From Verrucomicrobiaceae bacterium (GTDB lineage: Bacteria > Verrucomicrobiota > Verrucomicrobiia > Verrucomicrobiales > Akkermansiaceae): a stretch of 32,508 nucleotides of DNA. Each line of letters starts with the position of its first letter. The stretch's first letter is position 1. A program made the translations under genes and the position numbers. The stretch spans positions 1-32,508 of the forward strand of contig JAPOLH010000010.1 of the NCBI GenBank assembly GCA_029977225.1, written 5' to 3'. Positions 8,200-11,140 of this stretch are shown piece after piece. The notes beneath the pieces were generated by a model that saw nothing but the letters and a program-made list of their open reading frames with translations, had not been told where the DNA came from and did no database searches.

Positions 8200-8784
8200 G
8201 TGAACCTGCCCAACGCCATTTCCCTTTCGCGGCTTGTACTGACGGCGGTGTTCATTGGCGCCACCTTGTTGGATGCAGCCTTTGGCCCATGGCTCGCGTT
8301 GGCGGCCTTCGTGGCGGCGGCGATCACTGATTTTGTAGACGGCTGGCTTGCCCGCAAACTCGGCCTGGTCACGGCGATGGGCAAATTGCTGGATCCCTTG
8401 GCCGACAAGGTTTTGGTGTGCGCTGCATTTGTATACCTCAGCGAGCAAGGGCTATGCCCGGTTTGGGTGACGGTGCTGATCATTACGCGCGAATTTCTTG
8501 TGACAGGTCTGCGGCAGATTGCGGTCGAGGCGGGGCAGGTCATCGCCGCCGATGGCTGGGGAAAATGGAAGACCACGATGCAGCTGACCTTTTGCATCAC
8601 CTGTCTCGTTTGGTTGGCGCTAAGCCGAAGTGAATCGCAGGGCGCGGTGGCCGAATTTTTCCGCATGCTGTCGCATCCGTATGGTTGGATTCGTGAGCCA
8701 TCGATGTGGTTGGCACTGGGTCTGACGCTTCTGTCGGGATGGAATTACCTTCGTGCGAGCGCAAGTCTGTTGCGCGCGAAATGA
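8200..8784 (+). CDS. pgsA: CDP-diacylglycerol-glycerol-3-phosphate 3-phosphatidyltransferase
   Basis: PgsA is an inner-membrane enzyme that makes phosphatidylglycerophosphate from CDP-diacylglycerol and glycerol 3-phosphate, the committed step to phosphatidylglycerol. I chose the GTG at 8200 because it gives MNLPNAISLSRL, the near-universal PgsA start, and a 194-residue protein; ATG at 8170 or 8143 would add 10-19 unconserved residues. The CDP-alcohol phosphotransferase signature DG-x2-AR-x8-G-x3-D-x3-D is complete in VDGWLARKLG followed by MGKLLDPLADK. Several hydrophobic membrane helices follow. Other CDP-alcohol transferases share the signature, but the N-terminus favours PgsA. The M28-like gene starts 37 bases after its stop on the same strand and is probably cotranscribed. 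Confidence 0.92.
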   Translation: MNLPNAISLSRLVLTAVFIGATLLDAAFGPWLALAAFVAAAITDFVDGWLARKLGLVTAMGKLLDPLADKVLVCAAFVYLSEQGLCPVWVTVLIITREFLVTGLRQIAVEAGQVIAADGWGKWKTTMQLTFCITCLVWLALSRSESQGAVAEFFRMLSHPYGWIREPSMWLALGLTLLSGWNYLRASASLLRAK

Positions 8785-8821
8785 ATGGAGCGCGAGCGGT
8801 TTGGATCAAATTTTTCATGAG

Positions 8822-9739
8822 ATGATAACGCGTCGGATTCCGCTCACGATTGCCTTGATCGCCGTGCTGGCGGTTGCCTGGTGGTGGCAAACGCGTGGAT
8901 CGCTGGACTTGGGCGAGGCCGCTTACGAACAAACTCGGACGATCCTCGCCAAGGGTCCGCGGCCACCGCAGTCGAAGGCACTCGACGAGGTGCGTGCGCA
9001 TGTTGCGGCGCAGTTGCAGGCCAGCGGATGGGTGACTCGACGCGAGGCCTTCGAGCGGCAAACGCCGAAAGGTTTGATTCGATTTGAAAACCTGCGCGCG
9101 CGATTTGCGGTGGGCGGGGCGGATCCATGGGAGCGCCGGATTGATGGACTGTTGTGCGCGCACATCGATTCGAAACTGTACGAGGACAAAGTCTTCCTTG
9201 GTGCCGACGATGCGGCTTCGGCCTGTGCGGCGATCGTGGTGCTGGCGGAATTTCTGGCGAAGAAAAAACCGGAGCAAGCGGCGGCGCTGGAGTTGGTGTT
9301 CTTCGATGGCGAGGAGGCGCTTGAGGAAAACATCACGCCGCAGGACGGGCTTTATGGCAGTCGTCACTATGCAAATTTCTGGCGCGCGCGTGATGACAAG
9401 CCGAAGTGGGGGATCCTGCTCGACATGGTCGGTCACAAGGATTTGTCGATCCGCCTGCCCAGCGACACGCCGGATGATTTGAAGGGATTGGTTTTTGCAG
9501 CCGCAACGCACGAAGGTGTTGAGGGCCATTTCGGCATGGCCGCTATGCCGATCGTTGACGATCACGTGCCGCTCAATTTTGCAGGCATTCCGACCGTCGA
9601 CCTCATCGGTGATTTCACCCGCAGCGGATGGTGGCACACGGCGGGAGATAACCTGAATCTCATTTCACCCGAATCGCTTGATATTTCGATCCGCGTGACA
9701 TTGCGCATGATTGATATGCGTCTTGGAAATCAACGGTAG
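8822..9739 (+). CDS. Membrane-anchored M28-family zinc enzyme, glutaminyl-cyclase-like
   Basis: A 305-residue protein with one N-terminal membrane segment (about residues 6-22, after MITRR), so its catalytic domain should face the periplasm. The M28 metal and active-site residues are visible: H114 and D116 (CAHIDSK), D129/D130 (GADDAAS), E164/E165 (FFDGEEAL), D201 (LLDMVGHKD) and H272 (WWHTAGDN). The HxDSK, DDH (PIVDDHVPL, 246-248) and WHT motifs fit glutaminyl-peptide cyclotransferases better than plain aminopeptidases. The product may therefore cyclise N-terminal glutamine rather than hydrolyse peptides; sequence alone does not settle this. ATG at 8822 is chosen because it sits right before the signal anchor. 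Its TAG stop lies within the terminal repeat of the element at 9735-9813. Confidence 0.85.
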   Translation: MITRRIPLTIALIAVLAVAWWWQTRGSLDLGEAAYEQTRTILAKGPRPPQSKALDEVRAHVAAQLQASGWVTRREAFERQTPKGLIRFENLRARFAVGGADPWERRIDGLLCAHIDSKLYEDKVFLGADDAASACAAIVVLAEFLAKKKPEQAAALELVFFDGEEALEENITPQDGLYGSRHYANFWRARDDKPKWGILLDMVGHKDLSIRLPSDTPDDLKGLVFAAATHEGVEGHFGMAAMPIVDDHVPLNFAGIPTVDLIGDFTRSGWWHTAGDNLNLISPESLDISIRVTLRMIDMRLGNQR

Positions 9740-9813
9740 GGCGGACCGGCCTCGGTCCGCCGAAGAATGCCCCTGCGGGGTGGAGTGGGCGCTGCGGGCC
9801 GCATCGCCCTACC
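9735..9813. repeat. 79-bp hairpin-rich element with 9-bp terminal inverted repeats (MITE/REP-like)
   Basis: The ends are GGTAGGGCG (9735-9743) and CGCCCTACC (9805-9813), perfect inverted repeats. Inside lie a strong 9-bp hairpin (GGCGGACCG 9740-9748 with CGGTCCGCC 9753-9761) and short hairpins around CCCCTGCGGGG and GCGGGCCGC. The stop codons of both flanking convergent genes are the TAG within each terminal repeat. A partial copy lies at 1181-1212, which supports a dispersed family. There is no long T-run, so it is not a classical terminator, although the strong stem may still slow or end transcription from both sides. Confidence 0.8.
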
Positions 9814-11140
9814 TTTGCGAGGCCTTCCAGCATTCAAGGAAGCCGGATGCGAAATCTTCGGGGCGGGCCTTGATCCATGCTTCGAGCACGGGAATAGGAA
9901 ACCACATGGCGGATTCGATTTCCGCGGCGGGAAAGCGGATGTTGCCTTGGTGTTCGTAGCGGTAGAGGCGGATGTGTTCCCAGCCGGTGGCGGCGGAGGG
10001 TTTGAGGCGTGCGATTTCGGTGGGTGGGCATTTTGCCTCGATGCCCATTTCTTCGGCGAGCTCGCGAATGGCCGCTGTTTCGTAGGCTTCGCCGGCATCG
10101 AGATGGCCCGAGACGCTCGAGTCCCACACGCCCGGATGAGCGTCCTTGAGCATCGAGCGTTGCTGCAGCAGGACATCGCCGCGCTTGTTGAAAACCAAGA
10201 CATGCACCGCACGGTGCAGCAATCCTTGCGCGTGCACTTCGCCCCGGGTGGCTTGGCCGGTGACCTCATCATGTTCATCGACGACATCAAAAATTTCACC
10301 CGACTTCTGCGGTAGGTCTTTGAGCGGATGGGTGTCGCAGGCGCGGGTGAGCGCGATCCACTTGGCGAGATCGAGTTCTTCCGCGCGAGCGGTGGTGGGG
10401 ACGCCAAGCTCCTGTGAAATTTTTTCCCAGTCGGTGCCTTCGGGCAGTTGTTTTTTCAACTGCTTGCGGCGTTGGGCGAACCCGCGACGCAGCAATTCAT
10501 CGAAGAGTCGTCGATCGAATGCGGGAAGACCTTCCATCCGTGGGCGCATGATCGCCACCGTCGAGTCAATCGCAGGACGTGGGTGAAATGCTTCGGGTGG
10601 CACGGTGCGTTGCGGCTCGACGATCCAGTCGACCTGAGTGCGAAGCGAAAGCATGCCATAGTCCTTCGATCCGGGAGTCGCCGCGAGGCGGTCGATCACT
10701 TCCTTTTGCAGCATGATCACCGCGCGATGAAAGGGGTGGGGTCGGCTGAGCAAATTTTTGAGGATCGCGCCACCGCAGGAATACGGGAGGTTGCCGAGAA
10801 ACTTGAGCGGGCGATGGGGAAAAAGTTGCCGTACATCGAAGCGCGCGCCATCGGCATGGTGGACCTCGACTGAGGCATCACCGGCAAAGCGGTCTTTGAG
10901 AAAAGCGGCGAGGCGGGCATCAAACTCGATGAGAATCACGCGCTTTGCGACACCGACGATATGTTCGGTGAGCGCACCCGTACCTGGGCCGACTTCGACG
11001 ACGGTATCGTTTTCCGCAATCTCGAGCTGCGACACAATCCATCGCGCCATGTTCGGATCGATGAGGAAATTCTGTCCCATCTGTTTGCTGGGCAGCACAT
11101 TGAAGCGATCGAGTGCCTCCTTGATTTCCTTGCCGGTCAT
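9809..11140 (-). CDS. ksgA: Fusion of 16S rRNA dimethyladenosine transferase KsgA with a Nudix hydrolase
   Basis: One uninterrupted 443-residue frame. Residues 1-265 are KsgA/RsmA, which dimethylates two adjacent adenines near the 3' end of 16S rRNA using S-adenosylmethionine. Visible are PSKQMGQNFLID (17-28), the SAM-binding EVGPGTGALTEH (49-60) and the catalytic GNLPYS (116-121). Residues 280-443 are a Nudix domain starting GEIFDVVDEHDEVTGQATRG, like the YfcD/isopentenyl-diphosphate-isomerase-like branch. The complete Nudix box G-x5-E-x7-RE-L-x-EE-x-G-I spans 345-367, so pyrophosphohydrolase activity is expected on an unknown substrate. The start is supported by an AGGA nine bases before the ATG, one of the few ribosome-binding sites here. 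The final TAG is supplied by the repeat element. It lies downstream of the alkaline phosphatase gene, with a 58-base gap. Confidence 0.93.
   Translation of the reverse strand: MTGKEIKEALDRFNVLPSKQMGQNFLIDPNMARWIVSQLEIAENDTVVEVGPGTGALTEHIVGVAKRVILIEFDARLAAFLKDRFAGDASVEVHHADGARFDVRQLFPHRPLKFLGNLPYSCGGAILKNLLSRPHPFHRAVIMLQKEVIDRLAATPGSKDYGMLSLRTQVDWIVEPQRTVPPEAFHPRPAIDSTVAIMRPRMEGLPAFDRRLFDELLRRGFAQRRKQLKKQLPEGTDWEKISQELGVPTTARAEELDLAKWIALTRACDTHPLKDLPQKSGEIFDVVDEHDEVTGQATRGEVHAQGLLHRAVHVLVFNKRGDVLLQQRSMLKDAHPGVWDSSVSGHLDAGEAYETAAIRELAEEMGIEAKCPPTEIARLKPSAATGWEHIRLYRYEHQGNIRFPAAEIESAMWFPIPVLEAWIKARPEDFASGFLECWKASQR

Follow-up and report, generated by a model that had tools for sequence, protein, structure and literature searches.

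The M28-KsgA junction

The window, by which we mean the whole stretch of 32,508 nucleotides analysed here, comes from a verrucomicrobial MAG that is Akkermansiaceae-like. It contains an M28 peptidase gene and a KsgA-Nudix fusion gene that converge on each other (Pfam matches PF04389, PF00398 and PF00293). Both genes end within a 79-bp element that is a pair of inverted REP sequences. The features are given below, with the basis of each in brackets.

1180-1212, + strand: lone, degenerate REP arm of the element's family, GTTAGGGCGATGCAGCCCGCAGCGCC on the + strand, matching arm B (sequence search)
8753-9739, + strand: M28 peptidase gene, ending in the codons CAA CGG TAG (Q, R, stop), protein end LGNQR-stop (ORF, Pfam)
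9735-9813, no strand: head-to-head REP pair (REPIN/BIME unit), 79 bp (alignment with seven other full pairs of 75-82 bp from two close genomes)
9736-9739, + strand: GTAG tag of REP arm A, of which TAG 9737-9739 is the M28 stop (sequence, ORF)
9740-9761, + strand: REP arm A, a perfect 9-bp stem GGCGGACCG / CGGTCCGCC with a GCCT loop, abutting the stop codon (sequence, single-arm folding)
9770-9780, no strand: spacer hairpin CCCC-TGC-GGGG between arms A and B (sequence, spacer alignment)
9788-9808, - strand: REP arm B, bulged, with GGCG/CGCC and TGCG/CGCA stems interrupted by an A.G mismatch (sequence comparison of copies)
9809-9812, - strand: GTAG tag of REP arm B, of which TAG 9811-9809 is the KsgA-Nudix stop (sequence, ORF)
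9809-11140, - strand: KsgA-Nudix fusion gene, ending in the codons CAA AGG TAG (Q, R, stop), protein end KASQR-stop (ORF, Pfam)

The left end of the element reads GGTAGGGCG (9735-9743) and the right end CGCCCTACC (9805-9813), and outside these two ends the 8-mer GTAGGGCG has no exact match anywhere in the window. The outward inverted match covers 12 of 13 bases (CAACGGTAGGGCG / CAAAGGTAGGGCG). An earlier note on this DNA had described a 79-bp element with perfect 9-bp ends whose TAGs stop both genes; its coordinates are exact and both TAGs are in frame. The structured interior that it also described is borne out by the arm and spacer hairpins and by folding of the element that beats shuffles on both strands (z -3.0 and -3.4). 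In both arms GTAG stands directly 5' of a palindrome of 20-40 nt, which is the arrangement of GTAG REPs and REPINs. The degenerate arm at 1180-1212 sits close to the left edge of the window.

Genes that lack the hairpins end at other stops, and the same TAG without hairpins, which the earlier note had named as evidence against its reading, did not turn up among the orthologues. M28 orthologues without the REP end in LGN, LGK or LEK followed by TAA, TGA or TAG, so that the M28 protein of the window appears to have QR added past the LGN and LGK ends of its relatives. The tails of KsgA orthologues without the element vary after ECWK, and to judge from these orthologues a naturally variable tail is lost or swapped here. 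The KsgA-Nudix fusion itself can be aligned almost from end to end in nearly all the genomes of the order that were searched, and is therefore old in this group.

Copies of the element in three close genomes

Related copies were sought in the genome of the window (G000), in its sister MAG (G065) and in a third close genome (G030). The count of GTAGGGCG alone was discarded as a measure of the family, as the reversed control was commoner than the motif; the longer pattern GGTAGGGCGRHSCGG was therefore used, with one mismatch allowed and the reversed pattern as control. Arm-like sites numbered 16 in G000, 74 in G065 and 43 in G030, where the control gave 7, 9 and 6. By a loose rule, a hairpin can still be recognised in 8, 60 and 35 of the retrieved sites. 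Full pairs of 75-82 bp with GTAG outside amount to eight, of which G000 has one (that of the window), G065 five and G030 two. The search for further copies proposed in the earlier note thus did not come back empty, and because related copies exist in its own genome and in close relatives, the 79-bp structure is not a product of chance. A pattern search for the two 9-bp ends placed 0-30 bp apart gave no match, the true spacing being larger. A site in locus L185 at 1726 was dismissed as a chance pattern match that is no REP.

Multiple dispersed copies and inverted doublets with a conserved spacer, here the eight pairs, are again what is found in GTAG REP/REPIN families. Single arms occur by the dozen across the three genomes, and in G065 and G030 the majority of arms are unpaired. 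The GTAG motif is present in nearly all copies, including those far from genes. Arm B reads GGCG-A-TGCG-GCC-CGCA-G-CGCC, and across the copies one of its stem pairs is TA in 45, CG in 20, TG in 7 and CA in 1, a T-A/C-G covariation. After many of the single arms comes a different dispersed repeat, of the type TTTACCGCAAAGCCGCTAAGGTCGCAAAGGAACGC, and together they make up intergenic mosaics (L157:2230-2330, L151:2240-2330 and others).

The RAYT gene and the junction of the sister genome

The two genes of the junction are 96% (KsgA) and 92% (M28) identical between the sister MAG and the window. The junction of the sister is larger: a RAYT gene stands there with three REPINs on one side and a fourth on the other, and both outer TAGs serve as the stops of M28 and KsgA. 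A cognate RAYT flanked by the same REPs is thus found at this very locus. The gene (L047:949-1411) is interrupted by what looks like a one-base frameshift at a TTTTTTT tract, which is either real decay or an assembly error, and its current activity is therefore doubtful. Its halves match the profile NF047646, "REP-associated tyrosine transposase", with 32.0 and 27.6 bits, each below the cut-off of 80. Intact congener RAYTs, which have GTAG repeats on their flanks, reach 86.9 bits at most, with four of seven attaining the cut-off; by profile, then, the protein associated with these repeats is a RAYT. At the RAYT, contig C127 of the sister MAG matches JAGWXY010000057.1, from a Verrucomicrobia MAG, with 100% identity, and further contigs with RAYT genes are mostly labelled Akkermansiaceae or Verrucomicrobia. 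No RAYT was found in the assembly of G000, which is 89% complete in 167 contigs.

The REPIN of the window resembles the first REPIN of the sister array in its left loop and the last one in its spacer. Judged from these likenesses, collapse of an array by recombination in G000 would fit, and growth of the array in G065 would fit too. The copy in the window is probably a remnant of, or a precursor to, the larger REPIN-RAYT array of the sister.

Of 12 intact close RAYT genes of the genus (L086-L096), 9 use the TAG of their downstream REP as stop codon, which is possibly a new detail. These genes typically end in YQR-stop, encoded by CAA or CAG, then CGG or AGG, then TAG. M28 and KsgA end with the same nine bases as typical rayt genes. 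CAA precedes NGGTAG in 8 of 103 arms, at about six loci, where one or two would be expected, a pattern that was noticed post hoc. One might imagine that the REP end of this genus is longer than GTAG and that REPINs carry, or are cut beside, the last rayt codons, pasting a portable "Q-R-stop" onto host genes; we consider this unlikely.

Stop codons supplied to neighbouring genes

In the three genomes a REP TAG is the exact end point of six orthologous genes, namely those for M28, KsgA-Nudix, HlyD, a GT2 glycosyltransferase, an NAD epimerase and a PIN protein. A seventh, a VanZ-like gene of G065 (L164:1025-2236), is translated through a REP arm in another frame and acquires a short REP-encoded tail, GRAMRPAAPSL. 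Six in frame out of seven corresponds to P = 0.007 under an expectation of 1/3, with few loci that were recognised post hoc.

The clearest before/after case is hlyD. Its orthologue in G000 has no REP and ends in DGSAVSEQ-TGA, whereas those in G065 and G030 end in DGSAVSSLLR-TAG or STLLR-TAG inside a single REP arm; after this stop comes a repeat mosaic of about 200 bp, and then homology resumes. Presence and absence of the repeat thus differ between close genomes at hlyD, as does the array at the M28-KsgA junction between G000 and G065. The hlyD comparison shows that gain of a REP altered the last residues and the stop codon. No clean insertion with target duplication was found, and the hlyD site shows replacement as well as insertion. 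The earlier note had expected insertion to trim both neighbours cleanly. This holds only in part: at hlyD EQ-stop became SLLR-stop, M28 is apparently longer by QR, and KsgA lost or swapped its variable tail. The epimerase and glycosyltransferase genes keep a TAG stop although, in at least one genome, the REP body there has degenerated, a pattern consistent with selection on the stop after loss of the mobile part.

Most REP copies lie downstream of a gene's own stop or away from gene ends, many arms being about 6-102 nt past such a stop. Given this distribution and the one out-of-frame read-through, the supply of stops is a frequent by-product without dedicated design. The proposal of ready-made outward stops is supported for both genes of the junction. 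ORFs of 120-300 aa that end at a REP TAG (L154, L159, L178, L179, L180, L210, L217 at 3095, and L227) are probably spurious and were set aside because their codon-position GC is unlike that of genes, their translations look antisense, or they have no Pfam match (two scanned).

Origin of the element and alternative explanations

We therefore favour, with a probability of roughly 0.87, the reading that the element is a REPIN, made of two inverted GTAG REP hairpins with a short structured spacer, that it belongs to a family spread in trans, now or recently, by a RAYT of the genus, and that its TAG ends genes when in frame. RAYTs studied elsewhere recognise single-stranded REPs and need GTAG, which helps to choose the cleavage site (PMC8266576). 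By analogy, a RAYT of the genus may cleave and mobilise the element of the window as a single strand. Because the transposase would keep GTAG at the outer edge of the inverted arms, the TAG would face translation from outside. A gene near whose 3' end an arm lands in frame would stop there, usually with R as its last residue and with little harm, and the insertion would survive; out-of-frame insertions would mostly be lost. Between convergent genes both ends of a REPIN could act as stops, as at 9735-9813. The TAG closes the GTAG that RAYTs require, so the supply of stops is most simply seen as a side effect that is tolerated and, in the vicinity of gene ends, probably filtered by selection.

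The strong folding on both strands and the location between convergent genes would also suit a bidirectional terminator or 3'-end processing element under selection, whose REP-like look would be secondary, and most members of REP families are found 3' of genes (PMC3733652). The earlier note had suggested that the element might also block transcription both ways, for which it has no T-tract terminator. We hold this to be improbable, however, since the 79-bp element contains no site with an intrinsic terminator (stem-loop followed by a T-run), an Rfam search of it gave no family near threshold, the convergent M28-KsgA pair has no hairpin element in 3/3 readable congeners (L049, L064, L068), and copies occur at many unrelated loci. 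The genes might instead have stopped at these TAGs beforehand, with the repeat growing or inserting between existing stops. Some orthologues do end within 1-2 residues of the same place, such as M28 with LGN-stop and the epimerase with FFKNL-stop against FFANR-stop. Yet the TGA, TAA and TAG stops of the orthologues stand in differing contexts, none of those read has GGTAGGGCG there without the repeat, and the TAG is part of GTAG in nearly all copies, even far from genes, all of which makes a prior origin of the stops very improbable.

The earlier note had left the choice between a MITE-like and a REP-like element. Its small size, terminal inverted repeats and many copies would be expected of a classical MITE whose 9-bp terminal repeats are recognised by a DDE transposase, but the flanks AAATCAAC and TTTGCGAG share no direct repeat that could be a target-site duplication, the arms are themselves hairpins and often single, and the associated transposase is a Y1/HUH RAYT rather than a DDE enzyme. 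A DDE-type MITE is thus scarcely credible, while the REP-like alternative is upheld by the GTAG arms, the copies and the RAYT.

With the element read as a REPIN, its stems start right after the stop codon, so they could plausibly influence termination or mRNA stability. REPs very near stop codons in E. coli have been reported to stall ribosomes.

Relation to known systems

The principle of stop supply has been known since 2013, when the ends of GTAG REPs were described as often giving TAG stops to neighbouring ORFs (Di Nocera et al. 2013, PMC3733652), and the element is a well-documented further example. The same study reported abundant GTAG repeats in Opitutus terrae, another member of the Verrucomicrobia. 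The element shares with those families the GTAG tag, the hairpin arms, the HH dimers with structured spacers and the position near gene 3' ends; it differs in that one dimer stops two convergent conserved genes, the O. terrae families being compared by description only. With REPINs (Bertels and Rainey 2011, PMC3116915) it has in common an inverted REP doublet folding as a hairpin, a unit of about 71-110 bp and the link to a RAYT, whereas here the pair is a heterodimer of one perfect and one bulged arm, and singles outnumber pairs in these genomes. As in REPtrons or TnpA-REP systems (Nunvar 2010, PMC2817692; Corneloup 2021, PMC8266576), rayt lies between cognate REPs in both orientations and its product has HLH (HUH) and YIxxNPVRA motifs and a match to NF047646. 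Unlike in those systems, the downstream REP in this genus supplies many rayt genes with their own stop codon, the TAG.

The repeats offer a clean natural case of a transposase recognition motif that also serves as a stop codon, so that protein ends are reshaped while the genes stay unbroken. A before/after comparison is available at hlyD, and REPtrons are documented in the Akkermansiaceae.
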